The translations under genes were made by a program, and so were the position numbers. From NCBI RefSeq assembly GCF_004027225.2, contig NW_022651112.1, forward strand, positions 1 through 64,000: 64,000 nt of DNA, written 5' to 3'. The notes below the pieces were generated by a model that saw nothing but the letters and a program-made list of their open reading frames with translations, was not told the DNA's origin and made no database searches. Source of the DNA: Strigops habroptila. Its lineage: Eukaryota > Chordata > Aves > Psittaciformes > Psittacidae. Positions 21,821-48,163 of the stretch are shown in pieces. The stretch's first letter is position 1. Each line of letters starts with the position of its first letter.

Positions 21821-22320
21821 NNNNNNNNNNNNNNNNNNNNNNNNNNNNNNNNNNNNNNNNNNNNNNNNNNNNNNNNNNNNNNNNNNNNNNNNNNNNNNNN
21901 NNNNNNNNNNNNNNNNNNNNNNNNNNNNNNNNNNNNNNNNNNNNNNNNNNNNNNNNNNNNNNNNNNNNNNNNNNNNNNNNNNNNNNNNNNNNNNNNNNNN
22001 NNNNNNNNNNNNNNNNNNNNNNNNNNNNNNNNNNNNNNNNNNNNNNNNNNNNNNNNNNNNNNNNNNNNNNNNNNNNNNNNNNNNNNNNNNNNNNNNNNNN
22101 NNNNNNNNNNNNNNNNNNNNNNNNNNNNNNNNNNNNNNNNNNNNNNNNNNNNNNNNNNNNNNNNNNNNNNNNNNNNNNNNNNNNNNNNNNNNNNNNNNNN
22201 NNNNNNNNNNNNNNNNNNNNNNNNNNNNNNNNNNNNNNNNNNNNNNNNNNNNNNNNNNNNNNNNNNNNNNNNNNNNNNNNNNNNNNNNNNNNNNNNNNNN
22301 NNNNNNNNNNNNNNNNNNNN
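21821..22320. other. assembly gap of 500 N
   Basis: Exactly 500 N, the usual placeholder for a gap of unknown size. SMC1A should continue 5' into it from the left. CACNA1F should continue 3' into it from the right. Confidence 0.99.
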
Positions 22321-22880: not shown

Positions 22881-22913
22881 GAAGCCCCCCCCTCCTTGGG
22901 GACATGTCCTCAC

Positions 22914-24815
<1,902 letters not shown>

Positions 24816-26907: not shown

Positions 26908-29900
26908 ATGGAGGAGGTGGATAAGATCCTGATCCACTCCCTACGGCAGGCGGGGACGTGAGTGGGGGCGACGGGGAGGGTGTCTTGGGGTCTATGGGGT
27001 GTGTGTGGGGATTTTGGGGGGTCTGGGGTGGGTTTGGGGGGCTCTGAAGCGGTTTGAGGGGTCTGGGGGGGGATCGGAGGTGTGGGGGGGGGACCCTGAG
27101 GGAGGTCACCGTAAGGAATTGAGGGGGGGACAATGGGGTGTGGGGGGGGACCCTAAAGAGTTTGGGGGGGGGTCACCCTAATGAATTAAGGGGGGGAACG
27201 ATGGGGTGTGGGGGGACCCTGGTAGGTTTTTGGGGGTTCAGTGGGGGGGACAATTGGGTGTGGGGGGGCGACCCTAAAGAGTTTGGAGGGGTCATCTTAG
27301 TGAATTAAGGGGGGGAACGATGGGATATGGGGGGATCCTGGTAGGTTTTGGGGGGTTCAGTGGGGGGGACCCTAAAGAGTTTGTGGGGGGGCTCTAAGGG
27401 GGAGGACAATGGAGGGGGGGGGCCCTGGTAGGTTGTGGGGGGGACCCTCAAGCGTTTGGGAGTGGAGGTTTGGGGGTCCCTGAGAGGAAATAGGGGGGAG
27501 CTTGATGAGTGTTGGGGGTGGGTCAGGGTTTGGGGATGCTTTGGGGGGGGTCCCCATGACTGTGTATGTGTGTGTCCCGCCCCCAGAGCGGTGCCCCCCG
27601 AGGTGCAGAGCGTGCGGGACCTCACCCCGGAGCTGGTGGTGGAAGCCGCCGTCCGCTGCCTCCGGGCTGTGAACCCCACTTTGGGGGCCCCCCTCAGCCC
27701 CCTCCTGCCCCCCGGCATCTCCGCACGCTTCCGACTCGCTTCCGACCTGGCTGCTGCCTGCCAGGTACCCCCAAACCCCCCTAAATACCCCCAGATCCTA
27801 AGGGGGACCCCAAAAATGAGGGTGTGACCCCCGATTCCCTCCCTTTTTACTGCTAAGAGATTGGATTTGGGGGTGGTGTTGGGTACCAGACCTTGGTACC
27901 CCCCTAAATACCCCCACATCTTAAGGGGAGACCCCAAAAATGATGGGGTGACCCCCAATTCCCTCCCTTTTTACTACTAAGAGCTGGGATTTGGGGGTGA
28001 TGTTGGGTACCACACCTTGGTACCTCCCTAAATGCCCCCATATCTTAAAGGGGGACCCCAAAAATGATGGGGTGACCCCAATTCTCCCCCTTCTCGTCAC
28101 CAGGAGCTGGGATTTGGGGGTGATGTTGGGTACCAGACCTTCCTCTACAGCTCCGAGCACGACACCCGCCGCCTCCTCCTCTTCCTAGTGGAAAAGCTGC
28201 CTCGGGATGAGAGCGAGAGCGGGACCGAGCCCCCCGGTAGGGATCTGGGGGGGTCCCCGACATGTTGGGGGGGGTTAATGGGAGTTCTGACCTCCTTTAT
28301 GGCCCTATTCCCAAGGGAAATCGGGGGCTCTGCTCCGAGCCATCGGCGCCCGCATCCGGGAGCAGTTGGGGACCCCCTGGGTGCCCCCCCTTTGTCGCAC
28401 CCCCTGGCTGCAGCGCCTGCAGGTGAGTAGTGACCCCCCCAAACTATTGAGGACCCCCCAAGCTATAGGGGACCCCTTTTAATTGGGGGGGGGGGGGGTC
28501 ATTAACCCATTCATTACCCATTAGGGCACAAGTTGCCTCCATCCCTTCACTACCTGCCCCTTAGTCCTGCCTCAAAGTGGGGGACCCCCAGGTAAGTGCT
28601 ATGGGGGGGGGGGGGGAATGGATTTAGGGGGGTCTTTTGGTGTAATGTGCTCACCCCCCCCCCCCATAGAGCTGCAGGAGTATTATGGGGGGGCTGCCCC
28701 CCCTGTGCCGGCGCAGCCCCCCCTTTCCACCAGGACCCCCCCAGCTTTACTGGAGACCCACATTGCCCAGCTCAGTGCTCGCCACGACTGGGAGGCTGAA
28801 TGGGGGGGGCCCGGCTTGGCCTCTCGTCTGCCCCCCCAGGTAAGGACCTCCCCCATTTAGGGGGAGTTTTGGGGGTCCCTATGGGTCTGACCCCCTTTTT
28901 TAAGGCTTGGGAGTGCATGTGGGGGGGGGTTATGGGGCTCTATTGGGGGGCACTATGTATCTGACCCCCCCCTTTTCACCCCATCTCAGGGATATGAGGC
29001 TGGTTTGGGGGTCCCTGTGGGTCCTTTCCGCCCCCCCCCCCGGAGTACAGGGGGAGCTGTTTATGGGGCTATTTAGGGGTCTCTATGGGGCTGCCCCCCA
29101 TTTCTCACCCTCTACAAGATGTGGGGGATCTGTTGGGATGCTTTGGGGGTCCCTATGGGACTGACCCCCCCTTTTCCTTCCTCCCCATAGGAATACATTG
29201 GTCGGAAGCGGCTCCGTGCTCGGCTCCGGGCGCTGGAGCCCCTGCGCCAAGCCTGCCCCCCCCCGGCCCCCAGGGCCCCCCCTGGACCCTGCATGGCTCC
29301 AAGAGGCTTTTGGGGCTGGGGGGGCCGGGGGGGCCCTACCAAAGGGGTCCCGCTTCACCCGCACCCAACACCTGACCCATGAGCAGGTGAGGGGCTGGAG
29401 TTGGCGGGCTGGATTTGGGGGGGCTGGGGGGTGGTTTTGGGGTGTACCCCCCCCCCCCAGGGTCTGACCTGCTCCGTCCTATAGGACCCCCAGATCCTGC
29501 TGCAGCAGATCCAGGCGGCTGCTGAGAGCCTGCACCCATCAAAGGGCCCTGAGGAGGTGAGATGTCGAGAGGGGTGTTCACTCTGGAGCCTACTGATGGC
29601 CTCAACCATGTTCTGGACCCTACCAGTGGGTCTGTTGGGGGGTGTTCTGGACCCTACCAATGGGCCTATTGGGGGGTGTTCACTCTGAACCCTACTGATG
29701 GCCTCAACCGTGTTCTGGACCCTACCAATGGGTCTGGTGGGTGTTTGTTCACTCTGAACCCTACTGATGGCCTCAACTGTGTTCTGGACCCTACCAATGG
29801 GTCCATTTGGGGATGTTCACTCTGAACCGTACTGATGGCCACAACTGTGTTCTGGACCCTACCAGTGGGTCCATTGGGGGGTGTTCACTCTGAACCCTAC

Positions 29901-32900
29901 TGATGGCCTCAACCATGTTCTGGACCCTACCAGTGGGTCTGGTGGGGGGTGTTCTGGACCCTACCAATGGGCCTATTGGGGGGTGTTCACTCTGAACCCT
30001 ACTGATGACCTCAACTGTGTTCTGGACCCTACCAATGAGCCCATTGGGGGGTGTTCACTCTGAACCCTACTGATGGCCTCAACCATGTTCTGGACCCTAC
30101 CAATGGGTCCGTTGGGGGGTGTTCACCCTGGAGCCTACTGATGGCCTCAACCATGTTCTGGACCCTACTAGTGGGTCTGTTGGGGGGTGTTCTGGACCCT
30201 ACCAGTGGGCCTATTGGGGGGTGTTCACTCTGAACCCTACTGATGGCCACAACTGTGTTCTGGACCCTACCAATGGGCCCATTGGGGGGTGTTCACTCTG
30301 AGCCCTACTGATGGCCACAACTGTGTTCTGGACCCTACCAATGGGTCCATTTGGGGATGTTCACTCTGAACCCTACTGATGGCGTCAACTGTGTTCTGGA
30401 CCCTACCAATGGGTCTGTTGGGGGGTGTTCACTCTGAACCCTACTGATGGCCTCAACCATGTTCTGGACCCTACCAATGGGCCCATTTGGGAGTGTTCAC
30501 TCTGAACCCTACTGATGACCTCAACTGTGTTCTGGACCGTACCAATGGGCCCATTGGGGAGTGTTCACTCTGAACCCTACTGATGGCCACAACTGTGTTC
30601 TGGACCCTACCAATGGGTCTGGTGGGTGTTTGTTCACTCTGAACCCTACTGATGGCCACAACCGTGTTCTGGACCCTACCAATGGGTCCGTTGGGGGGTG
30701 TTCACTCTGAACCCTACTGATGGCCTCAACCATGTTCTGGACCCTACCAATGGGTCCGTTGGGGGGTGTTCACTCTGAACCCTACTGATGGCCTCAACCA
30801 TGTTCTGGACCCTACCAATGGGCCTATTGGGGGGTGTTCACTCTGAACCCTACTGATGGCCACCCTTAGGACACAGGAGCACGTCAGGCCAGCGAGGAGG
30901 CAGCTCTGGAGCAGACCCTGGCCCAGTTGGATGCTGCAATCGAAGGCTGCCGTGGGGAGATGCGGGATGCCCAGCTCAGCCTCACCCAGGTGGGTACCAC
31001 ATGGAGGTGAATGGGGGTTCTGGGGGGGCGGTTTGGGGTACCCTGATAATGTTGTGCCCCCCCCAAAGGCAGAAGCAGAGGTGCAGCAGGGCCGCCTGGC
31101 GCTGGGGGGCCGGGAGGACACCCTTCGACTGAAGGCACAAGCAGTCGAGCTGCTCCCTGATGCTCAGAGCAACATGGCCAAGCTTCAGGTGAGGCTTTGG
31201 GGGGGCCCCCAAGAGCTGGGGGGGGGGTTGGGGGTGTATGCAAGGCTATTTGAGGCCATAGAGGGGGTTTAAGTTGGTTGGGGGGGGAGTATGTTCAACT
31301 ATAGAGGTAAATGAGGGGGTTGGGGGTGTTATAAGGGGGTTCATGGGGGGGGAAGGAGCGTTTTGGGGTGCCCTGACCCTGTTCCCAGCTGGTGGTGGAG
31401 GCGAGCAGCCGCCGCATCGTCAGCCTGGCGGGACAATGGGAACGGCACCGGGGACCCCTCCTCGCCCAGTACCGGCACCTCCGGGCCCTGCGTGACTCTG
31501 CTCAGGTAAAGGGGGGGTCCTGGGCTCTGAACCCCACTTCTTGGGGGTCCACAGGGCCCCTTTATGGGGCTTTGGGGGTCCCTAGGTCTCTCACTCGGAG
31601 GTTTTGCGGTCCTCAGGGTCCCTTTATGGTGGGTTTGGGGTCCCCAGATCTCTTCTTGGGAGGTTTTGGGGTCCCTTTATGGTGGCTTTGGGGTCCCCAG
31701 GTCTCTCCTTGGGAGGTTTTGGGGTCCCCCAGTCTCTCCCTGGGAGGTTTTGGGGTCCATTTATGGTGGCTTTGGGGTCCCCAGGTCTCTCCTTGGGAGG
31801 TTTTGGGGTCCATTTATGGTGGCTTTGGGGTCCCCAGGTCTCTCCTTGGGAGGTTTTGGGGTCCTTGGGGTCCCTTTATGTTGGGTTTGGGGGTCCCCAG
31901 GTCCCTCCCTGGTCACTTTTGGGGTGTCTGAGGACACAGGGGCTTCTCTTCCCTGGGGATTTGGGGTGCCCAGAGCCCCCCAAGTGGGTTTTAGAGTCCG
32001 TGAGGGCTCTGGGGTGCCTTTCCCAATGGGTTTGGGGTGCTCAAGTCTCTCCCTGTCAGGTATTGGGGGTCCCTGGGGTCCCCTTTCCTGTGGGTTTGGG
32101 ATGCCCAGATCCCCCCAAAGTGGGTTTGGGGGTTCCCAGGTCACTCCTTGATAGCTTTTGGGGTCCCTGGGCTCCTTTCCCAATGGATTTGGGAGCCCTC
32201 AGGTCTTTCCCTAGTAGGTTTTGGGGTCCTTGGGCCTTAATTTGGGGCCCAATCCCAGGAGGTTTGCAACCTTGGTGTCCCATTCCCAATCGTTTTGAGT
32301 CTCCGATGTCTCATTCCCGATGATTTTGAGGCTCTCGTGTCCCATTCCCAATGGTTCTGAGTCCCTCCCAGGGTGTTCGGGGGTCTCTGAAGTCCCTTCC
32401 CGCTGCACTTGGGGACCTCTGGGCCCCCCCGCAGTGGATTTGGGGTATCCCTGATCCCAGTTTCCCTCCTCTCCCAGCTGGAATCGTCGCGGCGGCTCTC
32501 GGAGATCCGGGCCCTGCACGAGCGCAGCCGCTCGGCCGCGGATGAAGCGCGGCGCAAGGAGGAGCTTTACAAGACACTGGTGAGCCCCGGGGGCTGGACC
32601 CCCAGTTCCGTCTATCGCTTCCCTATGGATGCACTTCCATCTATCGCTTCCCTATGGATGCAATTCCATCTATCCCTATGGATGCAATTTCATCTATCCC
32701 CTCCCTATGGATGCAGTTCCATCTATCGCTTCCCTATGGATGCAATTCCCTATATCCCTATGGATGCAATTTCATCTATCCCCTCCCTATGGATGCAATT
32801 CCATCTATCCCTTCCCTATGGATGCAATTCCATCTATCCCCTCCCTACGGATGCAATTCCATCTATCCCTATGGATGCAATTCCATCTATCCCTGTGGAT

Positions 32901-35900
32901 GTAATTCCATCTATCCCTTCCCTATGGATGCAATTCCATCTATCTCTGTGGATGCAATTCCATCTCTATCCCTTCCCTATGGATGCAATTCCATCTATCC
33001 CTATGGATGTAGTTTCATCTATCCCCTCCCTATGGATGTAATTCCATCTATCCCCTCCCTATGGATGCAATTCCATCTATCCCTATGGATGCAATTCCAT
33101 CTCTATCTCTTCCCTATGGATGCAATTCCATCTATCCCTATGGATGTAATTCCATCTATCCCCTCCCTACGGACGCAATTCCATCTATCCCTTCCCTATG
33201 GATGCAATTCCATCTATCCCTATGGATGCAATTCCATCTATCCCCCCTCATGGATGCAATTCCATCTGTCCCCCCCCAAGGATGCCATTCCATCTATCCC
33301 CTCCTTATGGATGCAATTCCATCTATCCCTATGGACGCAATTCCATCTGTTCCTTCCCCATGGACGCAATTCCATCTATCCCCTCCCTATGGATGCAATT
33401 CCATCTATCCCTGTGGATGTAATTCCATCTATCCCCTCCCTATGGATGCAATTCCATATATCCCCCCTCATGGATGCAATTCTATCTATCCCTATGGACG
33501 CAATTCCATCTATCCCCTCCCTATGGATGCAATTCCATCTATCCCTATGGATGCAATTCCATCTATCCCTGTGGACGCAATTCCATCTATCCCCTCCCTA
33601 TGGATACAATTCCATCTATCCCCTCCCTATGGATGCAATTCCATCTATCCCTATGGATGTAATTCCATCTACCCCCTCCCTACGGATGCAATTCCATCTA
33701 TCCCTATGGATGCCATTCCATCTATCCCCTCCCTATGGACACAATTCCATCTATCCCTATGGATGCAATTCCATCTATCCCCTCCCTATGGACACAATTC
33801 CATCTATCCCTATGGATGCCATTCCATCTATCCCCTCCGTATGGATGCATTTCTATCTATCCCTATGGATGTAATTCCATCTATCCCTATGGATGCAATT
33901 CCATCTATCCCTATGGATGCCATTCCATCTATCCCCTCCGTATGGATGCATTTCTATCTATCCCTATGGATGTAATTCCATCTATCCCTATGGATGCAAT
34001 TCCATCTATCCCTGTGGATGCCATTCCATCTCTCCCCGTGGATGCAGGTAGCGGAGCTGGAAGCGCTGCCCCGCGATGTGTCTCGTGCCGTCTATACCCA
34101 GCGCATCCTGGAGATCGTGGGCAACATCCGGAAGCAGAAGGAGGAGATCAGCAAGGTGGGGGGGTCTGGGGGGGCCCCCCTGGTCCCCAATACACCGGGG
34201 GGGGGGGCAGAGGTTTTAGGGGTACCCCCAACCCTTTAGGAGGGTCCCTAAGGCACTTCTAGAGGGGGCATCTTTGGGTGTTGGGTACCATTGGACCCTA
34301 AGGGGGTGTTTGGGGGGGAGTGTTGGGTGCACCCCCAAATGGGGAGGGGGTTTTGGGGTACCCCACACATGATGGTGTGTGTCCCCCCCCCCAGATCCTG
34401 GTGGATACGAGGGCACTGCAGAAGGAGATCAACTCCCTGGTGGGGAAGCTGGAGAGGACCTTCAGTGTCACCGATGAGCTGCTCTTCAAGGTGGGGGGGC
34501 CCATATACACTTGGGGGGGCCCATATACACTTGGGGGGGCTCCATATGCACTTGGGGGGGCCCATATACACTTGGGGGGGCTCCATATGTACTTGGGGGG
34601 CCCATATACACTTGGGGGGGCCCCATATACACTTGGGGGGCTCCATAGGCACTTGGGGGGCTCCATAGGCACTTTGGGGTGGCCCATATACACTTGGGGG
34701 GGGCTCCATATACACTTGGGGGGGCCCATATACACTTGGGGGGGCCCCATATACACTTGGGGGGGCTCCATATGCACTTGGGGGGGGCCCATATACACTT
34801 GGGGGGCTCCATAGGCACTTTGGGGGGCCCATATACACTTGGGGGGGCTCCATATACACTTGGGGGGGCTCCATATGCACTTGGGGGGGGCCCATATACA
34901 CTTGGGGGGCTCCATAGGCACTTGGGGGGGCCCATATACACTTGGGGGGGCCCCATATACACTTGCGGGGCTCCATAGGCACTTTGGGGGGCCCATATAC
35001 ACTTGGGGGGGCTCCATATGCACTTGGGGGAGGCCCGTATACACTTGGGGGGCTCCATATGCACTTGGGGGGCCCATATACACTTGGGGGGGCTCCATAT
35101 GCACTTGGGGGGGGCCCATATACACTTGGGGGGGCTCCATATGCACTTGGGGGGCCCATATACACTTGGGGGGCTCCATAGGCACTTGGAGGGGGGCCCA
35201 TATACACCTTGGGGGGGGGCGTATACACTTGGGGGGCCCATATGCACTGGGAGGGGGGCCCATATGCTCTTGGGGGGGCTCCATATGCACTTGGGGGGCT
35301 CCATATGCACTTGAGGGGGGCCCATATACACGTGGGGGAGCCTCATATACACTTGGGGTGCCCCTGGGATATGGGGGGGCAGCCCATGGGGATCAAGGTG
35401 GGATTTAGTTGGGGGGGAGCTCAGGGGCATCCCCTCTATGGGATGACCCTATTGGAAGTTTGGGACACTGGGACCCCCCCAAACTGTCCCTTGTGCCCCC
35501 CAAATTATCCCATATGCCCCCCCCAACTGTCCCATGTGTTCCCGCCCCCCAAGTTGTCCTTTGTGCCCCCCCAAATGTCCCTTGTGCCCCCCAGGATGCC
35601 AAGAGGGACGAGGTGGTGAGGAAAGCCTACAAGTACCTGGCAGCTCTACATGAGGTAATGGGGGGCTATGGGGCCTCGGGGGGGGGGGGATGAAGGGTTT
35701 TGGGGTGCAGATGGGATTGGGGGGTCCTGACCCCCCCTTTCTGCCCCCCAGAACTGTGCCCAGCTCATCCGGACCATTGAGGACACTGGGACCATCCAGA
35801 GGGAGATCCGGGACCTGGAGGAGCAGGTGGGGGTTTGGGGGGGCTTATATGGGGGGGGGGGAAATTTGGGGTGCCTATGGGGGGGCCTCCCATCTATTGG

Positions 35901-37624
35901 GGTGTCCCCCATGTCTATTGGGGTCTTAATTGACTTGTCATGTGTCCCCCCCTCTCTGTGTCCCCCCTAATTCATCACCCCCCCCAAACTTCACTCCCCA
36001 ATTCTTTGTCCCCCAAATTCACCCCCCAAACCCTTTGCCCCCCAACTCTTTGCTCCCCAAACTCTTCACCCCCCAAACCCTTTGACCCCCAAATTCACCC
36101 CCAAACTATTTGCCCCCTAAACCTTTGCTCCCCAACCCTTTGCCCCCCAAATTCACCCCCCAAACTCTTTGCCCCCCAAATCTTTGCCCTCCAAACTCTT
36201 TGTCCCAACCCCTTTGCCCCCCAAATTCACCCCCCAAATTCACCCCCCAAACCCTTTGCCCCCCAACTTTTTGCCCTCCAAACCCTTCACCCCCAAACTC
36301 TTTGCTCCCCCAACTCTTCGCCCCCCAACTCTTTGCCCCCAAACCCTTTGCCCCCCAAACTCTTCGCCCCCAAACACTTTGCCCCCCAAATTCACCCCCC
36401 AAACTCTTTGCCCCCGAAACCTTTCGCCCCCAACTCTTTGCCCCCCAAACTTTTTGCCCTCCAAACCCTTCACCCCCAAACTCTTTTTACCCCCCAACTC
36501 TTTGCCCCCAAACCCTTTGCCCCCAAATTCACCCCCAAACTTCACCCCCAACTCTTTGCCCCCCAACTTTTTGCCCCCCAAACCCTTCACCTCCAAACTG
36601 TTTGCCCCCCAACTCTTTGCCCCCAAACCCTTTGCCCCCCAAATTCACGCCCAAACCTCACCCCCAAACTCTTTGCCCCCTAAACCTTTGCCCCCCAAAT
36701 TCACCCCCCAAACTTCACCCCCAAACTCTTTGCCCCCAAACCCTTTGCCCCCCAAATTCACCCCCCCAAACTTCACCCCCAAACTCTTTGCCCTCCAAAC
36801 CCTTCACCCCCAAACTCTTTGCCCCCCAAATTCACCCCCCAAACTTCACCCCCAAACTCTTTGCCCCCTAAACCTTTGCCCCCCAAATTCACCCCCCCAA
36901 ACTTCACCCCCAAACCTTTGCCCCAAACCTTTGCCCCCCAACTCTTTGCCCCCCAAACCTTTGCCCCCCAAATTCACCCCCCAAACTTCACCCCCAAACT
37001 CTTTGCCCCCTAAACCTTTGCCCCCCCAATTCACCCCCCCAAACTTCACCCCCAAACCTTTGCCCCCAAACCTTTGCCCCCCAACTCTTTGCCCCCAAAC
37101 CTTTGCCCCCCAAATTCACCCCCCAAACTTCACCCCCAAACTCTTTGCCCCCTAAACCTTTGCCCCCCAAATTCACCCCCCCAAACTTCACCCCCAAACC
37201 TTTGCCCCCAAACCTTTGCCCCCCAACTCTTTGCCCCCAAACCTTTGCCCCCCAAATTCACCCCCCAAACTTCACCCCCAAACTCTTTGCCCCCAAACCT
37301 TTTGCCCCCCAAATTCACCCCTCAAATTCACCCCCCAAACCTCACCCCCAAACTCTTTGCCCCCAAACCTTTGCCCCCCAAACTCACCCCCCAAACTTCA
37401 CCCCCAAACTCTTTGCCCCCCAACTCTTTGCCCCCCCAAACTTCACCCCCAAACCCTTCCCCCCCATTTCCTACCCCCCCATCGCCCCCAAACCCACGTT
37501 GCCCCCCCAGATCGAGGGCGAGACGAGCGCCAAGCCCCCCGCCAGCCTCGAGCGCATCCTCAGCGACTGCCGGGCGCTGCGGGAGGAGAACGCGCTGCTG
37601 GCGGCACGGGCCCGGCGCGCCTGA
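26908..37624 (+). CDS. CCDC22: CCDC22, COMMD/CCC-complex scaffold (complete, 17 exons)
   Basis: CCDC22 joins COMMD proteins and CCDC93 in the CCC complex, acting with Retriever and WASH in endosomal recycling. Exons: 26908-26957, 27587-27764, 28104-28236, 28316-28422, 28525-28591, 28670-28839, 29191-29386, 29485-29556, 30870-30989, 31069-31188, 31389-31505, 32478-32579, 34048-34155, 34395-34490, 35595-35654, 35752-35826, 37511-37624. The N-terminus (MEEVDKILIHSLRQAGT) forms the calponin-homology-like NN domain. The C-terminal half is coiled coil with the near-invariant SRAVYTQRILEIVGNIRKQK. The total is 627 codons, the human length, if one base in exon 29191-29386 is discounted: its two halves are in frames offset by one around C/G runs at 29255-29285. 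The tail faces FOXP3. Confidence 0.97.
27000..27470. repeat. G-rich degenerate repeat in CCDC22 intron 1
   Basis: Repeated GGGGGGACCCTAAAGAGTTT and GGGGGGAACGATGGG phrases. Confidence 0.7.
27765..28103. repeat. 123-bp tandem units containing part of CCDC22 exon 3
   Basis: Two intronic units (about 27828-27950 and 27951-28073) precede the true exon 3 at 28104. Each contains a copy of its first 40 or so bases (GCTGGGATTTGGGGGTGATG, TTGGGTACCA), preceded by a pyrimidine tract and AG and followed by GGTACC. The last unit merges into the real exon. Confidence 0.9.
29557..30865. repeat. 68-bp minisatellite in CCDC22 intron
   Basis: About 20 copies of a 68-bp unit containing GTTCACTCTGAACCCTACTG, ATGGCCTCAACCATGTTCTG and GACCCTACCAATGGGTC. 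The final unit runs into the acceptor of exon 30870-30989. Confidence 0.93.
31540..32460. repeat. minisatellite GGGAGGTTTTGGGGTCC
   Basis: Units of about 50-55 bp with TCTCTCCTTGGGAGGTTTTG and TTTATGGTGGCTTTGGGG, more degenerate to the right. Confidence 0.88.
32590..34045. repeat. minisatellite CCCTATGGATGCAATTCCAT
   Basis: About 50-60 units of 24 and 30 bp (GATGCAATTCCATCTATCCC). The array reaches the acceptor of exon 34048-34155, whose AG lies inside a GGATGCAG unit. Confidence 0.95.
34491..35360. repeat. 20-21-bp minisatellite CCCATATACACTTGGGGGG
   Basis: About 40 units, starting directly at the donor of exon 34395-34490, alternating CATATACACTTGGGGGG and CATATGCACTTGGGGGG. Confidence 0.93.
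35960..37500. repeat. minisatellite CCAAACTCTTTGCCCCC
   Basis: About 1.5 kb of units such as CAAACTCTTTGCCCCCCAA and AATTCACCCCCCAAACTTCA, in the last CCDC22 intron up to the acceptor of exon 17. Confidence 0.93.
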
Positions 37625-37823: not shown

Positions 37824-40800
37824 TTAACTTTGGGGGGGCATAAAGCACTTCATGTCGCAGTCCCTGTAGGGGAAAGGGGGGGTTAGAGGGGGGTTTGGGG
37901 TGCTGGGAGGCGGTTTTGGGGTGCTCAAGGGTGTTTTGGGGTGCTGGGGGGTATATTGGGATGCTGGGGGGGTGTTTTGGGGTACTGGGGTGCGGGTTTG
38001 TGGTGCTGGGGGTGTGTTTTGGGGTGCTGGGGGGTATATTGGGGTGCTGGGAGGGTGTTTTGGGGTGGTTTTGGGGTGCTGGGGGGTGGTTTGGGGTGCT
38101 TGGGGGTGTTCTGGGGTGCTGAGGGAGTGTTTTGGGGTGCTGAGGGAGTGTTTCGGGGTGCTGAGGGAGTGTTTCGGGGTGCTGGGGGGGGTGTTTTAGG
38201 GCAGTTTTGTGGTGCTGGGGGTATATTGGGGTGCTGGGGGGGTGTTTTGGGGTGATTTTGGGGTGCTTGGGGATGTTTTGGGGTGCTGAGGGAGTGTTTT
38301 GGGGTGCTGGGGGGTGGTTTTGGGGTGCAATGGGGCACTTTTGGGGTGCTGGGGGCGGCTTTGGGCTGCAATGGGGCAGTTTTGGGGTGCTGGGGGTATA
38401 TTGGGGTGCTGGGGGTGGTTTTGGGCTGCAATGGGGCAGTTTTGGGGTGCTGGGGGTATATTGGGGTGCTTGGGGGTGTTTTGGGGTACTGGGGGAGTGT
38501 TTTGGGGTACTGGGGGAGTGTTTTGGGGTGCTGGGGGGTGGTTTTGGGGTGCAATGGGGCAGTTTTGGGGTGCTGGGGGGTGGTTTTGGGGTGCAATGGG
38601 GCAGTTTTGGGCTGCTGGGGGGTGGTTTTGGGGTGCAGTGGGTGGTTTTGGGCTGCTGGGGGGTGGTTTTGGGGTGCAGTGGGTGGTTTTGAGGTGGTTT
38701 TGGGGTGCTGGGGGCAGTTTTGGGTTGCAATGGGGCAGTTTTGGGGTGCTGGAGGCTGTTTTGGGGCACTGGGGGGCATATTGGGGTGCTGGGGGACGGG
38801 TTTGGGGGTACCTGGGGTAACGTTGGCCCCGTTTGCGCCTGAATTCGGCCTCATCCACGGTCCATACGGCCCCGCGCACGTTCTCCACCCGCACGAAGCA
38901 CTTGTGCAGGCTCAGGTTGTGGCGAACGGCGTTCTGGGGGGGGGGGACCCCGAAAATTGGGGTGTTCCCCCCACCCCCATAGGGATTTGGGGGGGTCTGG
39001 GGCAGGTTAAAGGCGTTTTGGGGGGGCTCTGAGGTGTTTTATATGGGGTGGTGATGGAGAGAACTTGGGGTACCCCCCCAAAATGGGGGTGCTGGGGTAG
39101 TATTGGGGTCCCAATGGGGCACTTTGGGGGTGTCACTTGCTATGGGGCAGCTTTAGGGGTGAACCGAAAGGTTTGGGGACCCCCTTTCTTGGTGATGGAG
39201 GATGAAGGGGGAGAGTCCTTATAGTGTCATAAGGGGGTTCGGGGTGTCCCCCCTGAAGTGGGGGGGCTCAGTGGTGGGTTTGGGGGGGGTCTTTGAGGTG
39301 TTTTAAATGGGGTGGTGATGGAGAGAACTTGGGGTACCCCCCCAAAATGGGGGTGCTGGGGCAGTACTGGGGTCCCAATGGGGAAGTATTGGGGTCCCAA
39401 TGGGGCACTTTGGGGGTGTCACTTGCTATGGGGCAACTTTAGGGGTGAAATAGGAGGTTTGGGGACCCCCTTTCCAAGTGGTGGTGATGGAGGATGATGG
39501 GGGGGGGGTACCCCCAAAACGGGGGTGCTGGAGCAGTATTGGGGTCCCAATGGGGCACTTTGGGGGTGTCACTTGCTATGGGGCAGCATTTTGGGGTGAA
39601 CCAAGAGGTTTGGGGACCCCCTTTCCAAGTGGTGGTGATGGAGGATGATGGAGGGGGTACCCCCAAAACGGGGGTATTGGGGTCCCAATGGGGCACTTTG
39701 GGGGTGTCACTTGCTATGGGGCAGCTTTAGGGCTGAACCAAGAGGTTTGGTGAGTGATGGGGATGGAGGATGAAGGGGGGGGGTTGGTTTTGGGGGGTTC
39801 CTTATGGTATCATAAGCGGGTTTGGGGTGTCCCCCCGATGTGGGGGGGTCCGGGGGGGGATGTTGGGGTGCAGGGGGGGGGTCCCCACCTTCCAGGTCGC
39901 TGTGTTGTGCCGGAAGTAGCCGAACATGTGGCTGAACCAATGGTAGATCTCCCCCAGGGTCCGCTGCCGCTGGGGGGACTCCAGGATGGCCTATGGGGGG
40001 GGGGACATGGGTTTGGGGGGGCACAGTAGGGTTATGGGGGGCACATTTGGGGTACAACAGGGTTATGGGGGGGGTCACATTTGGGGGTACAAAAGGGTTG
40101 TGGAGGCACGTTTGGGGGTACAATAGGGATGTGGGGAGGCACATTTGGGGTACGACAGGGTTATGGGGGGCACATTTGGGGGTACAATAGGGATATGGGG
40201 GGGTCACATTTGGGGGTACAATAGGGTTATGGGGGGCACATTTGGGGGTACAATAGGGTTATGGGGGCACAGTTGGGGGTACAAAAGGGTTATGGGGGCA
40301 CATTTGGGGGTACAATAGGGTTATGGGGGCACGTTTGAGGTACAACAGGGTTATGGGGGGGTCACATTTGGGGGTACAAAAGGGTTATGGGGGCACATTT
40401 AGGGGTACAATAGGGATATGGGGGTCACATTTGGGGGTACAATAGGGATATGGGGGCACGTTTGGGGGTACAATAGGGATATGGGGGGCACATTTGGGGG
40501 TACAGTAGGGTTATGGGGCTCACATTTGGGGGTACAATAGGGTTATGGGGGCACATTTGGGGGTACGACAGTTATGGGGGCACATTTAGGGGTACAATAG
40601 GGATATAGGGGGGTACATTTGGGGGTACAATAGGGATATGGGGAGGCACGTTTGGGGGTACAATAGGGTTATGGGTGGCACATTTGGGGGTACAAAAGGG
40701 TTATGGGGGGCACATTTGGGGGTACAATAGGGATATGGGGGGTACATTTGGGGGTACAATAGGGATATGGGGAGGCACATTTGGGGGTACAATAGGGTTA

Positions 40801-42579
40801 TGGGTGGCACATTTGGGGGTACAAAAGGGTTATGGGGGGCACATTTGGGGGTACAATAGGGTTATGGGGGGGTCACACACATTTGGCTATAGGGGACATG
40901 GGGGGCTATAGGGGATGGGGGGGGGCTGTATGAGAAGGAGGGGGTGTAAGGGATATTGGGAGAGCTATGGGGGACTATAGGGGACCCGAGGGGGGTGTAT
41001 GGGGTGGGAGGGAGTGTAGGGACTTAGGGTGGGGCTATAGGGGACATAGGGGGCTATAGGGGACATGGGGGCGCTATGGGGGGCTATAGGGGACGGGGGG
41101 ATGTCACTGACCCAGCGGATGAGCATGGCATAGGTGTAGGGGGGGCGGGCAGTGCTGATCCTGTAATGCTCCAGCTCTGGGGGGGAGGGGGGGACATGGG
41201 GGGGGGGTCAGTGTGGACCCATCCCCTTGACCCCCCCGCACCCCCTTCCATGTCTTGGGGGGGTCCCCCCCAATGCCCCCCCCCCCCCATCCCCGGCTCT
41301 CACCTGGGCAGAGCCCCCCCTGCTCCAATGGGTGCCCCGGGGGGGGGGGCTCGGGCTCCCCCTCTGCTTTGGGACCCCAAATTGGGGGGGTCCCAACTTG
41401 ACCCTTCCCGGGGGGGGCCTGGAGGGGGACACACAGACACACATTGAGGTGATGGCAGCAGCTTGGGGGGGGCCCCAGCCCCTGTTTTGGGGTGTTCCCC
41501 CCCCCCCTCGTTCTTACCATAATGGGGGGGCCCCTCCGGATGAGCTGCGCCTGCAGCAGCCCCAGGCGGTGGCGCTCGCGAGCCAGCTGGGGGGGGGTAA
41601 ATGGGGGGGCACATATGGGATATAGGGGGGCAATGGGGGGCAATGGGAGGAGAAGGTTTGGGGGGGCACATATGGGATATGGGGGGCAATGGGAGCAGAT
41701 GAATGGGGGGGCAATGGGGAGGCAATGGGAGGAAATGGTTTGGGGGGGGCAATGGGGGGGCAACAGGAGGAGATAGTTGAGGGGCAATGGAAGGAGATGG
41801 GGGGCAATTGGGGGCAATGGGAGGAGATGGTTTGGGGGGGGCAATGGGAGGAGATGGGGGGCAATTGGGGGCAATGGGAGGAGGTGGTTTTTGGGGGGGG
41901 GGGGGTTGGGGTCCCCCCCTTTACCTGCTGCTCCAGCTCCTGGATGCGCTCCAGCTGCCGCAGGCACTGAGCCACCCCCCCCAGGTCACAACGGGGAGCC
42001 CTTGGGGGGGGGCACATCCATTGGGGGGGGGGGGGGGTCAGTGAGGACCCAAGATTTGGGGGGTGTCCCCCCCCCCAAAGCGGGTCCCCGCTCACCTGGG
42101 GGGCTGCTGCGGGGGGTCATTGCAGGGGGGGGTGGGCGAAGGGGCTCGGTCACGGGCGGGGGGGTCTTTGGGGCCCCATTCAAACGTGGGGAGACCTGAA
42201 AGAGGTTTGGGGGGGGGAATATAAAGGGGAGACCCCAATAGAAGGGGTGCATTGAGGGGGTATAAAAGAGGAGGGAGCCCTAAAATGGGGGGGGGGGGGT
42301 GTTACCATGCACCGGGGGGAGCCGTGTCCTCATCACCAGCACCCCGGGGTGGTGGATGTGCAGGAGGGGGGGGCACGACCCCCCCTTGGGCGGCACCTGT
42401 ATATATGTGTATATATATATATAAGGGGGGATATAAAGAGATGAACCCCCAAATCCTGACACCCCCCCCCATTGTGGACCCCAATATGGGGCTCTGCCCC
42501 CCCCACCTGCGTGTGCTGGGGGTCCCCGTGGGTCAGCACCGTGGGGCGATCCTGGGGGCTGCGGGGGGGGCGGCGCTGC
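37824..42579 (-). CDS. FOXP3: forkhead box P3, zipper and forkhead exons (extreme N-terminus unresolved)
   Basis: FOXP3 is the lineage-defining transcription factor of regulatory T cells. Ten phase-consistent exons: 42507-42579, 42306-42396, 42096-42195, 41925-42000, 41518-41586, 41304-41418, 41112-41176, 39889-39990, 38812-38933, 37824-37863 (283 codons). Human-like N-terminal matches are [21 protein letters not shown] (human LPPGINVASLEWVSREP) and [10 protein letters not shown]. The leucine zipper spans 41925-42000 and 41518-41586 ([16 protein letters not shown], then [12 protein letters not shown]). The forkhead runs from [12 protein letters not shown] through [16 protein letters not shown] and [14 protein letters not shown] to [26 protein letters not shown] and EFRRKR match FOXP3 rather than FOXP1/2/4. 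The C-terminus is short ([14 protein letters not shown]), as in FOXP3. No C2H2 zinc finger is visible. The start codon exon upstream of 42579 is not resolved. It lies tail-to-tail with CCDC22. Confidence 0.93.
37880..38800. repeat. minisatellite TTTTGGGGTGCTGGGGG in the last FOXP3 intron
   Basis: About 45 units of roughly 20 bp (GGTGCTGGGGGTGGTTTTGG). It separates the last forkhead exon from the 40-nt terminal exon. Confidence 0.92.
38990..39790. repeat. 140-290-bp tandem duplication within the FOXP3 forkhead intron
   Basis: CACTTTGGGGGTGTCACTTG recurs at about 39119, 39406, 39556 and 39696, with shared flanks (GGTGGTGATGGAG, GGTACCCCC). It lies between exons 39889-39990 and 38812-38933. Confidence 0.88.
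40010..40880. repeat. about 30-bp minisatellite in FOXP3 intron
   Basis: About 28 units of CACATTTGGGGGTACAATAG followed by GGTTATGGGGGG. Confidence 0.93.
41590..41905. repeat. minisatellite GGGGGGCAATGGGAGGAGAT
   Basis: Short array between the two FOXP3 leucine-zipper exons, units of about 25-40 bp. Confidence 0.8.
42397..42425. repeat. TA/TG microsatellite at a FOXP3 acceptor
   Basis: TATATATGTGTATATATATA takes the place of the polypyrimidine tract directly upstream (minus strand) of the acceptor of exon 42306-42396. Confidence 0.85.
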
Positions 42580-42814
42580 CTGGAGGGGGGGGATGTGTGA
42601 GACACCCCCCCCCCGAACCCCAATTCCCGCCCCCCCATCAACTGTGTGATAGGAGCGGCCGCGCACGAGGGCCCTGCGTCATGGTACGGCCCAACGCGTG
42701 TGTCCCCCCCCGCCGCCATCACTGTGGTACCCTCCAGTTACCCCCCAACCAGTATGGACTGGGCCCAATCCTGGTCCCCATTGGTACCCACTGGGCGCAT
42801 CCATAGGAGCTTTA

Positions 42815-43600
42815 TGGAGCTCCCAGTGCTCCCCATGTCCATCCCAGTGCCCTCCCAATCAATCCCAGTGCCCCCCATGTCCATCCCAGTCCATCCCAGT
42901 GCCCTTCCAATCCATCCCAGTGCCCCCATGTCCATCCCAGTGCCCTCCCAATCCATCCCAGTGCCCCCCATGTCCACCCCCAGTTCATCCCAGTGCCCCC
43001 CATGTCCATCCCAGTCCATCCCAGTGCCCTCCCAATCCATCCCAGTGCCCCCATGTCCATCCCAGTGCCCTCCCAATCCATCCCAGTGCCCCCATGTCCA
43101 TCCCAGTGCCCTCCCAATCCATCCCAGTGCCCTCCCAATGCATCCCATCCCTTCCCCAGTCCACTCCAGTGCCACCCAGTCCATCCCAGTGATTCCTTAG
43201 TCCATCCCAGTGCCCTCACAATCCATCCCAGTGCCCTCCCAATGCATCCCATCCCTTCCCCAGTCCACTCCAGTGCCACCCAGTCCATCCCAGTGATTCC
43301 TTAGTCCATCCCAGTGCCCTCACAATCCATCCCAGTGCCCCCCATGTCCATCCCCAGTTCATCCCAGTGACCCGTAGTCCATCCCAGTCCCCCTCCAGTC
43401 TTACCCAGCCCCTTCCAATCTCTCCCAGAAAGCCGCCATCCCTCCCAGTCCTCCCCAGTGCCGCCCAGTCCATCCCAGTAACCCCCCCAGTACCCTCCCA
43501 GCCTCCCATTTTCCCTCCCCAGTGCTCCTCCATCACCCCCCAGTCCATCCCAGTGCCCCCCAGTGCATCCCAAATGCCCCCCAGTGCCCCCGGTGCCGCA
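42815..43600. repeat. 21-bp minisatellite ATCCCAGTGCCCTCCCAATCC
   Basis: Units of ATCCCAGTGCCCTCCCAAT and CCATGTCCATCCCAGTGCC, about 30 copies, with an internal block duplicated at about 43130-43210 and 43240-43330. Confidence 0.9.
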
Positions 43601-43734
43601 GCTCACGGGTCCCGGGCCCCCGCCATGGCTCTGGGTGACACCCGGTGCCTCCACCCTTGATTTATAGACGGGAAACCACAGCCCTGAGTCACGGCGGGGG
43701 CGGGATGGGGGGGGATGGGCCCCCCCAGACCCAA

Positions 43735-45040
43735 AATGAACCCGAAACAGCGACAGACCCCCCGAAACGCACAGAAATGGCCCCAAAATGGGCAGAAATA
43801 GCCCAAAACGCACGGAAAAGCCCCCAAAAAGGGCAGTAAAGCCCAAAATGCATAGAAATAGCCCCAAAATGGGCAGAAATACCCCCAAACGGACAGAAAT
43901 ATCCCTCAAAATGCATAGAAATAGCCCAAAATGCATAGAGATACCCAAAATGCACAGAAATACCCCCAAATGCATAGAAATACACCAAAGTGCACAGAAA
44001 TGCTCTGAAGTGCACAGAAACACTGTGAAACACACAGAAATATGCCAAAAATGCACCAAAATGCCCCGAAATACCCAAAAAATACCCAAAAAATGCATAG
44101 AAATATGCCAAAAATGCATAGAAATGCCAAAAATTGCACAGAAATACCCCACAATGCACAGAAATACCCCAAAATGCACAGCAATAGCCCGAAAATGCAT
44201 GGAAATACCTGAAATACACAGAAATACCCCCGAAATGCCCCAAAATGCACAGAAATGCCCCGAAATGCAACTAAATACACCAAAAATGCAGAGAAATATC
44301 CCAAAAATGCATAAAATACCCCCAAATGCACAGAAATACCCCAAAATGCAGAGAAATACACCAAAAATGCATATAAATACCTCAAAAAGCACAGAAATAC
44401 CCCAAAATGCTCAGAAATATCCCAAAATACACAGAAATGCCCCGAAAATGCATAGAAACACCCCAAAATGCATAGAAACACCCCAAAATGGCTGCGAACA
44501 GACGCCTCGATGAGCGGCCTCAAAATGAGAAGAAACAGCCCAAAATGAGCAGGTAGAAACACCCCAAATAAGGCAGGAAGAGACACCTCAAAATGAGGAG
44601 AAACACCCCAAAAAGCCCAGGCTGAGACACCCCAAATTGGCCAAAGACACCCCAAAATAAGGAGAAATACCCCAAAATGAGGGCACAAACGCCTTAAAAT
44701 GGCCGGATAGAGACAGCCCGGAACAACGAGGGAGAAACACAACGAAACCTGTAGAAACACCCCAAAAAAGGTCCTTGCAGACACCCTGAATTGACCAAAG
44801 ACAACCCAAAATGGGGGGGAAATGCCCCAAAACAGCCGTGCAAAGACACCTTAAAATGTCCATAAAGAGACACTTCAAAATGAGGAGAAACACCCCAAAA
44901 TGAGCAGGTAGAAACAACACAAATAGGGCAGAAACACCCCAAAATGAGGAGAAACACCCCAAAAATAACTGGGTAAAAAACACCCTAAAATGCTGGACAG
45001 AAACACCCCAAAATGAGGAGAAAAGTCCCCTTGAAGCAGG
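43735..45040. repeat. A-rich minisatellite CAGAAATACCCCAAAATGCA
   Basis: About 60 degenerate units of 19-22 bp. The variant at 44560-45040 reads GAGAAACACCCCAAAATGAG. Confidence 0.92.
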
Positions 45041-45695
45041 TAGATGGTGACACCCCAAAACAGGGGTTTTCCCCCCAATTCCTATGTCCAAACACTCCAA
45101 AACTCCCTAAACTACCCCAAAAAGACACTGTTGGCAAAAGAAGCTCAACCACTGAACCTCAAAATGCGGTAAATGGCCCCAAAAGGCCCCAAACTGTGCC
45201 CCAAAACAGCTCAGAAAGGGTAAACCCCCCCCTTATACCCCCTCCCCACAAGGGTTTTGAGCCCCAGGCCCCAATTCCTGCCCTTTTGGCGCCCCCGAAA
45301 CTGGCTGGTTTTGATGGTATTTGGCTTTTTTGCCCCAAATCTGCGCTGTTTGAACCCAAAACTGCTCCTGGTTTCGGGGGGGATGTGTTTTGTTGTCTCC
45401 CCCCAACCCCCCCCCCGGACTTCCCCGGCTCGAAGCGACTTGAAACTTGCCCTTAAGACAGCAGGAAACGGGGGGGGGGGGGGGGCGGGATGGGTGCACG
45501 ACACCAGCGCAGGGCCCCCCCCCCCAAATTACACACCCCCCCATAGGGATATAGGGACCCCCCCCATTCCCGTGTCACCCATGTGCAGGCGTGTGCACAA
45601 TGCTCGTGCAAAGCCCCCCCCCCCCCCCCCCCCCCCCCCAATCCTCATGCAAAGGGGTGTTGGGGTGCAAGCCCCCCCCCCAATAACCCACTCAC

Positions 45696-45770
45696 CAGCA
45701 GCACCTCGCTTGCTGCCAGCCCCACCCGCAGCACCCCGCTTTTATGGTCGTTCCCCCCCCGTGATGTCAG
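45696..45770 (-). promoter_or_regulatory. candidate FOXP3 TATA promoter and noncoding first exon
   Basis: On the minus strand a CRE/AP-1-like TGACATCA (45762-45769) is followed by CATAAAAGC (TATA-like, 45739-45746). About 45 bases further on is a strong donor, CTGCTG|GTGAGTGGG (exon edge at 45696). Mammalian FOXP3 also starts with an untranslated exon several kb upstream of the coding exons. The link to FOXP3 rests on orientation and position only. Confidence 0.4.
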
Positions 45771-46519: not shown

Positions 46520-48163
46520 ATGGCGCGCTCACCCGCCTCCGCCGCGGCGGCGGCGCCCCCCCCGTGGCCGGACTCCCGGCATGCCCCGCGCGGGGGGGGC
46601 CCCCCCCAGCATGCCCCACACCCCTCGCCCCCCCCTTCCAGCCCCACACATGCCCCCCCCTCACCCCATAACCCCGACGGCCTCTGCACCCCCCCCTCCA
46701 TCCCTATCCCCATCCGGGACTCTTGGACCCCACCGGGACACCCCGAGACCCCCCCGGGACACCCCGAGACCCCCCCCGGGGTGGGGGGGTCCCGGAGGGT
46801 TCTATTCGCTGACGCTTTGGGGCTCCCCCTCGCTCGCCTGCGGCAATACCGGCCCTGGGACCCCCGAGGGAGGGGGGGGCACCCGGTGGGAGGGGAGGGG
46901 CGAGGAGGGGGGGAGTGGGGCGAGGGGGGGGAGCAGCCCCCCGGGAGCTGGATGAGGCCTGGGAAGGGCAGGTAAGAGATATGGGGGTGGTGGTAAACCG
47001 CATGGGGGTGTCCCCCCCAATGGGGTCATCCCCCCCCTCCCTGCATGTGCACCCCTAAATGGGGGGAGGGTCGGGGGTGGTGGTGTTCGGGCATGCTTGG
47101 GACCCCCCCTCTTGAATGTATGGGGTACCCAAATAGGGGTCCCCAATAGGTGTGGGGGGGATGCAGATGATGCCCCCCCTCTGCTTTTTTGGGGGGGTTG
47201 CTATAGTGACATCCCCCCCGTCCCCTCCCTAAAAGGCCACAGGAGGCAGAGGATGCGCAGCCCCCACCCCCTGACAACCATATGGGTAAGTATCACCCCC
47301 CCAATAGCTATTTGGGGGGTACCCCCCCAATTTAAGGGTTATTCCCCCCAATTTAAGGGGTACCCCCCAATACTAGTGGTACCCCCACCAATTTTAGGGG
47401 TATCCCCCCCACTTTTAGAGTTATCCCCCCCTAATTTTAGGGGTATTCTCTCCCCAGTTTTAGGGGTACCCCCCCATTGTAAGGCTCCCATTAGGGCGGG
47501 TACCCCCGCATTATAATGCTCCCACCCCAACATTAGGGGTACCCTCATTTGGGGGTCCCCCACTTCACCCCCCTTCCATCCCACAGAGCCTGACCCATCC
47601 CCAACGCCCCCCCCGGATGCGGAGCAGCCCCTTATACAGGTGAGACAATCTCCCCCCACTCTCCAGAAGTGGGGTAGCCCCCCCCCAAAAGGGGTACCCC
47701 AAAAGAAGGGGGTACCCCACAATGCTGCCCCCCACCCCCCCCATAGGGTGCTGAGGAGGAGGCGGTGGCGCGGGAGCTGGAGCAGCTTTACCTGTCCCAC
47801 CTCCGGCGGCAACGGGGGGAGCCCGGTGACAACGGGGACCCCCCCCCCCGAAACGGGGGTCCCCCATTGCCCGAGCGAGCCCCCAACACCTCCTTAGCCA
47901 ATGAGATGGCGCTGCATTACGAAGCGGGGGGGGGGCGCCGCAGCCCCCCCGTGCTGTTGGGGAGGGGGGGGCCGGTGGAAGGGGCGTTGTTGGTACCAGC
48001 CAGGCCCCCCCGGGGCCGGGGGGGTGGCTTGGGGGGGGCCCTGAGGGGTTGTGGGGTGCTGTTGGCATTGGCTGTGCTGGTACCGGTGGCTTGGGGGGAC
48101 GGGGGGGGCCCCACTGCTGCACTGGCATTGGGGCTCTACCTGGCACTGGCCTGGCTCACATAA
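46520..48163 (+). CDS. PPP1R3F: protein phosphatase 1 regulatory subunit 3F, short form
   Basis: PPP1R3F targets PP1 to glycogen. Exons: 46520-46971, 47236-47285, 47587-47639, 47747-48163, in phase, 323 aa against about 800 in human. Exon 1 holds the PP1-docking RVxF motif in RRVLFADALGLPLARLRQY, nearly identical to the human segment. The last exon has ARELEQLYLSHLRRQR and ends in a hydrophobic C-terminal anchor (VLLALAVLVPVAW ... LALGLYLALAWLT). No carbohydrate-binding CBM21 domain is seen between them. The G-rich end of exon 1 also reads RELDEAWEGQ in another frame, so a homopolymer error there is possible. The identification rests on the RVxF block, the tail anchor and the position head-to-head with FOXP3. 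Confidence 0.82.

Follow-up and report, generated by a model that had tools for sequence, protein, structure and literature searches.

Gene content of the locus

The window, a stretch of 64,000 nucleotides of Strigops habroptila (kakapo) DNA, carries FOXP3 on its minus strand between positions 37824 and 43626. The gene consists of 11 coding exons with matching phases. Together they form a coding sequence of 873 nt (GC 0.695, GC3 0.85) that specifies a protein of 290 aa. The genes and exons of the locus are as follows.

22910..24335 (approximate limits), minus strand: CACNA1F, only its initial exons, truncated at the assembly gap
26908..37624, plus strand: CCDC22, convergent with FOXP3, 12 tblastn blocks
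37824..37863, minus strand: FOXP3 coding exon 11, short C-terminus and stop
38812..38933, minus strand: FOXP3 coding exon 10, forkhead, continued
39889..39990, minus strand: FOXP3 coding exon 9, forkhead with IYHWF
41112..41176, minus strand: FOXP3 coding exon 8, forkhead begins
41304..41418, minus strand: FOXP3 coding exon 7, proline-rich linker
41518..41586, minus strand: FOXP3 coding exon 6, leucine zipper, second half
41925..42000, minus strand: FOXP3 coding exon 5, leucine zipper, first half
42001..42095, minus strand: FOXP3 intron 4, 95 bp, site of the zinc-finger exon in mammals, none here
42096..42195, minus strand: FOXP3 coding exon 4, block aligning gap-free with mammalian LPPGINVASLEWVSREP
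42306..42396, minus strand: FOXP3 coding exon 3 of the gene model
42507..42579, minus strand: FOXP3 coding exon 2, first seven residues missing from the NCBI kakapo model
43607..43626, minus strand: FOXP3 coding exon 1, start codon, only 20 nt, GT donor
46520..48163, plus strand: PPP1R3F-like gene, head-to-head with FOXP3

The first-pass annotation had claimed ten phase-matched exons in a locus spanning 37824..45770. The phases do match and the 37824 end is correct, but the coding exons number 11 and coding stops at 43626. The MAGARDP start of the short first exon is common to kakapo, falcon and chicken FOXP3.

The gene order CACNA1F-CCDC22-FOXP3-PPP1R3F is that of mammals, with PPP1R3F as its least certain member. 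CCDC22 lies tail-to-tail with FOXP3, as had been noted: its stop occupies 37622-37624 and the FOXP3 stop begins 199 bases further, on the opposite strand. Eleven of its 12 tblastn blocks show 47-88% identity and one 41%, and Pfam CCDC22_CC was recognized on one exon. The calcium-channel exons match L-type channel alpha-1 proteins, the best being alpha-1D (226 bits); that they belong to CACNA1F rather than a paralogue follows from their place. The head-to-head neighbor claimed earlier is likewise present, as a real bird gene starting at 46520. It carries the RVLFADALGLPL motif, which we take to be a mark of PPP1R3F, and a search of this gene for a carbohydrate-binding domain found none. The motif, together with the synteny described for ground tit (PMC4777427), suggests that the gene is PPP1R3F, the least certain of the assignments. 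Rfam gave zero matches at gathering score in the window.

The window contains a single gap of 500 Ns (21821-22320), at which two genes break off. Such a gap could hint that the contig acquired its FOXP3 from a foreign source, through contamination or chimeric assembly. However, FOXP3, CCDC22, the calcium-channel exons, the PPP1R3F-like gene, NAA10 and HSD17B10 all lie on one N-free stretch, and the protein joins the parrots in a maximum-likelihood tree (99/90). In 5 of 5 species that occur in both match lists, the longest contig also has equal length for FOXP3 and for the PPP1R3F-like gene. We therefore regard a foreign origin as extremely improbable.

The locus is GC-rich and laden with repeats, like those described for small avian chromosomes. 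In this it resembles the dot chromosomes, for which a study of ohnologs reports a 29% loss in birds (PMC12954441), and one might suspect a FOXP3 pseudogene that retained its structure and lost expression or translation. Against this, none of the 11 exons has its reading frame interrupted, their splice sites are usable, and tandem arrays make up 64% of the intron bases but none of the 873 exon bases. Furthermore, FOXP3-type proteins from at least 23 bird species, kakapo included, were counted manually among the 120 matches listed, and FOXP3 is expressed in chicken. A decayed gene is thus very unlikely, if marginally less so than a foreign one.

Orthology and diagnostic residues

The best database match of the predicted protein is Strigops habroptila FOXP3 (639 bits, E 3.9e-187, 95% over the whole query). 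In the maximum-likelihood tree, the protein groups with bird FOXP3 (support 100/100), and all FOXP3 proteins are split from FOXP1/2/4 (100/98), with FOXP2 and FOXP4 represented by one PDB forkhead-only row each and none so named among the 120 matches listed in a second search. With this sampling, the translated exons do not fall inside FOXP1, FOXP2 or FOXP4, a grouping that the first-pass annotation had named as one refutation. A long-branched shark FOXP3 row sits with the sauropsids (94/90), contrary to the species tree.

Pfam places a Forkhead domain at residues 192-267 of 290 (E 9.7e-26). FOXP chains fill the top seven places among the PDB matches, and ranks one to four are all FOXP3. In first place stands a FOXP3 chain that includes both zipper and forkhead; it scores 173.1 bits, and its forkhead part 153.3. 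FOXP4, FOXP1 and FOXP2 score 145.6, 140.8 and 139.1 bits. The zipper, I-x6-L-x6-L-x6-L starting at residue 114, has the FOXP3-type form V/I-x6-L-x6-L-x6-L and aligns to that of a PDB FOXP3 chain (22.5 bits); the Pfam FOXP coiled-coil model reached 19.2 bits, under its cut-off of 28.9. The leucine zipper, the forkhead motifs RWAILE, IYHWF and EFRRKR and the short C-terminus reported earlier are all present in the gene model. The N-terminus is rich in proline (26.3% of the first 95 residues). Its 17-residue block aligns without gaps to mammalian FOXP3 as had been claimed, but with 6 of 17 identities (panda FOXP3, by eye) it is weak support alone.

Could this instead be a diverged FOXP4, FOXP1 or FOXP2 gene? 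One bird FOXP3 carries the database name 'P4-like', and a turkey gene has been described as mis-annotated (PMC4777427), a parallel for such a confusion. The forkhead identities to human proteins are level (FOXP3 62/81, FOXP4 63/82, FOXP1 62/82, FOXP2 60/82), as are the scores of the human FOXP3 forkhead-only PDB chain (146.0 bits) and FOXP4. Since the forkhead does not favor human FOXP3 over human FOXP4, the proof rests on the tree, the zipper, the diagnostic residues and synteny. The residue at human forkhead position 348 is Trp, as in the FOXP3 rows compared (12 from birds, 18 from elsewhere), where nine FOXP1/2/4 rows have Gln. The His of IYHWF occurs in all 12 bird FOXP3 rows; other FOXP3 proteins have H, Q or R, and FOXP1/2/4 have N or S. 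The short C-terminus and the flanking CCDC22 and calcium-channel genes also speak against a FOXP1/2/4 identity. For the intra-rung interface, PMC10719092 names residues of which six of seven are the same as in mouse FOXP3; the exception, residue 411, is Ala here, Phe in mouse and Leu in human.

Mis-annotation of a FOXP4 or FOXP1/2 gene is rejected on these lines of evidence, and we give it almost no credence. The earlier remark that the gene is hard to explain as FOXP1/2/4 is correct on the whole, although the forkhead by itself would not bear it out. Taken together, the tree, zipper, diagnostic residues and synteny bear out a bona fide avian FOXP3 locus. We are nearly certain that the gene is an intact-looking FOXP3 orthologue, likely acting as mammalian FOXP3 does by orthology.

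Zinc finger and upstream region

The C2H2 zinc finger of FOXP3 is present in mammals, fish and amphibians. A six-frame pattern search of the whole window found no FOXP-type C2H2 finger at the FOXP3 locus; when the pattern was relaxed slightly, a single hit turned up anywhere in the window, a proline-rich plus-strand segment lying between the final pair of CCDC22 exons. The finger pattern matches 117 of 117 rows taken from the FOXP1 search, so that its absence here is a further point against FOXP1/2/4, and 49 of the 120 rows of the FOXP3 search list. The finger is missing from the best 32 of the 120 listed FOXP3-search rows and from 71 of all 120, although these 71 include incomplete models and isoforms from species whose gene has the exon. 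Because the finger has been reported absent from FOXP3 of ground tit and reptiles (PMC4777427), it does not define sauropsid orthologues, and the kakapo locus agrees with the published view of birds without a FOXP3 zinc finger.

The stretch from 43626 to 45770, which had been included in the locus, can only be a putative 5' non-coding exon or promoter at most; a candidate GTGAGT donor lies at 45690-45695. Closer to the gene is one further feature.

43660..43691, minus strand: candidate core promoter with TGACTCA, TGTGGTT and TATAAAT

These motifs start at -65, -54 and -40 from the FOXP3 start codon, respectively, and are presumably AP-1, RUNX and TATA-like sites. The cluster occurred in 0 of 200 simulated sequences, a figure that overstates its rarity as the motifs were chosen after reading the sequence. 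We speculate that parrot, and perhaps all bird, FOXP3 may be transcribed from a compact AP-1/RUNX/TATA core promoter 34-65 bp before the start codon, lacking the distant non-coding exons that mammals have, and may have lost its zinc finger when a single phase-symmetric exon was deleted; we consider this combination possible, yet rather unlikely. If true, the deletion would fix permanently the junction that some mammalian FOXP3 isoforms form by skipping. The locus supplies sequence for promoter work.

Predicted function and comparison with known FOXP3 genes

FOXP3 is the master gene of regulatory T cells. The kakapo protein would be a forkhead transcription factor of 290 aa with a proline-rich N-terminus and no zinc finger, in which the leucine zipper is predicted to pair two subunits and the C-terminal forkhead to bind DNA. 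Given its orthology, the mammalian role is the most likely one: it would be made in CD4+CD25+ T cells, its dimers and multimers would bind forkhead and TnG-repeat sites, and it would set the regulatory T-cell program. What the sequence itself shows is the gene structure, the orthology, the synteny and the conserved interface residues; expression, DNA binding and regulatory T-cell function are predicted from orthology.

FOXP3 was once believed lost in birds, and for this reason each clean locus helps to show that the gene was merely hidden by GC-rich, repetitive sequence. Burkhardt et al. reportedly described chicken FOXP3 in 2022. The novelty implied by the first-pass annotation does not survive: a paper of 2016 had already described avian FoxP3 (PMC4777427), chicken FOXP3 followed in 2022 (as cited in PMC12716188), and at least 23 bird species are among the matches listed. 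Bird FOXP3 has long been in the literature, public databases already contain the kakapo protein, and this locus alters no current conclusion.

Compared with the Strigops habroptila database protein (NCBI/UniRef, 289 aa), ours has 282 identical residues and no substitution. The two differ in two splice choices, the database model skipping QRRPPRS at exon 2 and reading a few residues of intron 4 ahead of exon 5. Ground tit FoxP3 (PMC4777427) also has 11 exons, lacks the zinc finger and has Ile at the first zipper position; it is 298 aa long versus 290 here, and its N-terminus contains 25.2% proline versus 26.3%, the regions being defined differently. Its neighbors ccdc22, ppp1r3f, naa10 and cacna1f are as here, likened by description (PMC4777427). 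Chicken FOXP3 (A0A8K0ZUK2) shows 79% identity over the whole query and 81 of 82 identical forkhead residues. Its expression has been shown by others, who reported FOXP3 RNA in CD25-positive T helper cells. Mammalian FOXP3 differs in having a zinc-finger exon and a longer N-terminus, but the zipper, the forkhead, most of the named interface residues and the gene order are common to both.

Gene model and relationship to other FOXP proteins

FOXP3 lies on the minus strand, where 11 coding exons with agreeing phases run between 43626 and 37824 and are separated by introns that start with GT and end with AG. The joined exons (873 nt; GC 0.695, GC3 0.85) encode 290 amino acids. The protein has a proline-rich N-terminus (Pro makes up 26% of residues 1-95), a leucine zipper of the form I-x6-L-x6-L-x6-L starting at residue 114, a forkhead spanning residues 192-267 (Pfam Forkhead, 9.7e-26) and a short C-terminal tail. 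The Pfam FOXP coiled-coil model scored 19.2 bits on it, below the cut-off of 28.9.

A protein search with this product was examined for the best 120 of 922 matches, the first of which was the database FOXP3 of kakapo itself (95% identity, whole query covered). The two share 282 identical residues with no substitutions. The two models part only where exon 2 begins, by seven residues, and where exons 4 and 5 meet, by a few; the residues that the database model has in excess are encoded in the window before exon 5. FOXP3 from night parrot (88%), goshawk and gyrfalcon (82%), chicken (79%) and alligator (56% identity, 86% query coverage) was also among the matches listed, as were FOXP3-type proteins from at least 23 bird species, several of them partial or named otherwise. 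Misleading names at this locus are frequent in databases; the shearwater (Calonectris) FOXP3, match P0006, is labelled P4-like.

The choice between FOXP3 and a paralogue is undecided by the forkhead alone. Identities of the window forkhead to the human domains are 62/81 for FOXP3, 63/82 for FOXP4, 62/82 for FOXP1 and 60/82 for FOXP2, and forkhead-only PDB chains are nearly level (human FOXP3 146.0 bits, FOXP4 145.6). The top PDB chain is a longer FOXP3 that includes the zipper (173.1 bits, 153.3 for its forkhead part). Human forkhead position 348 is Trp in all 30 FOXP3 rows compared and Gln in all nine FOXP1/2/4 rows, and the His of IYHWF in the window forkhead is counted among the decisive FOXP3 residues. 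A maximum-likelihood tree was built from 35 rows over 244 columns, from zipper to forkhead, using 10 of the 24 bird rows within matches P0001-P0026, 16 other FOXP3 rows, six FOXP1 rows and one PDB forkhead each for FOXP2 and FOXP4. The window grouped with kakapo (paired branch supports 98/76), then with parrots (99/90) and all birds (100/100), and these were joined by alligator, turtle and squamate FOXP3 (98/99). All FOXP3 rows were separated from FOXP1/2/4 (100/98), and the split, together with the bird clade, bears out the first-pass annotation's claim that this is FOXP3 rather than FOXP1, FOXP2 or FOXP4. A long-branched shark FOXP3 adjoins sauropsids (94/90); since this placement contradicts the species tree, deep branching inside FOXP3 is unreliable.

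Neighbouring genes

The following features surround FOXP3; CCDC22, NAA10, HSD17B10 and SMC1A were located with protein probes by tblastn.

About 2685-3383, minus strand: coiled-coil ORF, which we take to resemble IQSEC2
About 22910-24335, minus strand: initial exons of a gene for the alpha-1 subunit of an L-type calcium channel (best match 226 bits, alpha-1D), by position CACNA1F
26908-37624, plus strand: CCDC22 (12 tblastn blocks, with identity of 47-88% in 11 of them and 41% in the other; Pfam CCDC22_CC)
46520-48163, plus strand, head-to-head with FOXP3: PPP1R3F-like gene, with RVxF-type motif RVLFADALGLPLARLRQYRPW and a C-terminal hydrophobic stretch
Past the PPP1R3F-like gene, minus strand: NAA10 and HSD17B10 (tblastn)
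Past NAA10/HSD17B10, plus strand: 6-phosphofructo-2-kinase gene (Pfam scan)

The stop codons of CCDC22 and FOXP3 are separated by 199 bases. That CCDC22 and probably PPP1R3F flank the gene, as initially proposed, was upheld, the former by tblastn and Pfam. The gene from 46520 is taken as PPP1R3F by its motif, presumably a mark of PPP1R3F, and by the gene order of ground tit.

Mammalian PPP1R3F carries a carbohydrate-binding CBM21 domain. No CBM21 was found in the 14 stop-free ORFs scanned by Pfam (some short ORFs fell outside the scan) or in the seven of 19 relatives scanned, and none of the 19 had precomputed Pfam domains. Seventeen of these 19 matches have names, all from birds. In each of the 5 species that occur among the listed matches of both FOXP3 and the PPP1R3F-like gene, the longest contig is of equal length for the two genes. 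A literature search on PPP1R3F in birds found nothing on CBM21 absence; a glycogen-targeting subunit lacking its targeting module would merit attention. Database labels for this gene include basic salivary proline-rich protein, filensin-like and translation initiation factor IF-2-like (P0238, P0244 and P0246).

The single N run in the window, a 500-N gap at 21821-22320, lies outside FOXP3. To its left, SMC1A (minus strand) matches the probe (residues 1-686) only from residue 438, and to its right the calcium channel is present as first exons only. Both genes are cut off there; the real gap is probably much longer than 500 bases, or else its sides are misjoined.

Upstream motifs, predicted DNA binding and proposed T-cell role

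On the minus strand at 43660-43691, TGACTCA, TGTGGTT and TATAAAT, which we take to be AP-1, RUNX and TATA sites, begin at -65, -54 and -40 from the FOXP3 start codon. They occur together in a unique 60-bp span of the window and in 0 of 200 first-order random sequences, a figure for motifs selected post hoc from sequence already inspected.

A 13-residue forkhead segment, presumably the DNA-reading helix, differs from human by a single Ile to Val change. PMC10719092 reports that FOXP3 assembles into ladder-like multimers on TnG-repeat DNA, an arrangement shown for the mouse, human, platypus and zebrafish orthologues as well as for other FOXPs. Six of the seven intra-rung residues named there are as in mouse (Arg356, Val396, Val398, Val408, Asp409 and Glu410), and the seventh, 411, is Ala in the window. 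Phe331 is described there as essential; its counterpart is Tyr in a PDB-chain alignment read by eye. Since most of these interface residues are kept and the presumed DNA-reading segment nearly so, the window protein would be expected to bind DNA and multimerise as mammalian FOXP3 does. A regulatory T-cell function may be proposed from orthology and from chicken, where the accessible part of PMC12716188 reports FOXP3 RNA in CD25-positive T helper cells.

Zinc finger, introns and comparison with other birds

No FOXP-type C2H2 pattern was found in six frames at the FOXP3 locus, and none of the best 32 of 922 matches (P0001-P0032, partial models and isoforms among them) has the zinc finger. The intron at the site of the mammalian zinc-finger exon is just 95 bp long. 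Certain mammalian FOXP3 isoforms among the matches listed also omit this exon, with the junction RKD-R-HCQADH in panda (P0034), and the Arg at the window's exon 4/5 junction likewise comes from a split AG|G codon. The exon thus appears phase-symmetric, and its loss would be possible without a frameshift. In the portion available, Denyer et al. leave open whether the finger is absent across all archosaurs.

FoxP3 has already been published for birds, and the kakapo protein is present in NCBI and UniRef; a literature search for FOXP3 in Strigops found no paper. The available text of PMC4777427 reports FoxP3 from ground tit and two falcons, and chicken FOXP3 is credited to Burkhardt et al. 2022 in the parts seen of PMC12716188, PMC12954441 and PMC12220609.

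Tandem arrays make up 64% of FOXP3 intron bases and 0 of 873 exon bases. In introns 1, 5, 8 and 10 (within 37864-43606) the arrays take up 75-98% of the sequence, intron 10 being the highest at 98%; their repeat units are some 10-125 bp long, and they end short of the exons. Chicken dot chromosomes have similarly repetitive introns, according to the available part of PMC12954441. Ground tit FoxP3, as described in PMC4777427, likewise has 11 exons, no zinc finger and matching neighbours, and encodes 298 amino acids against 290 here.
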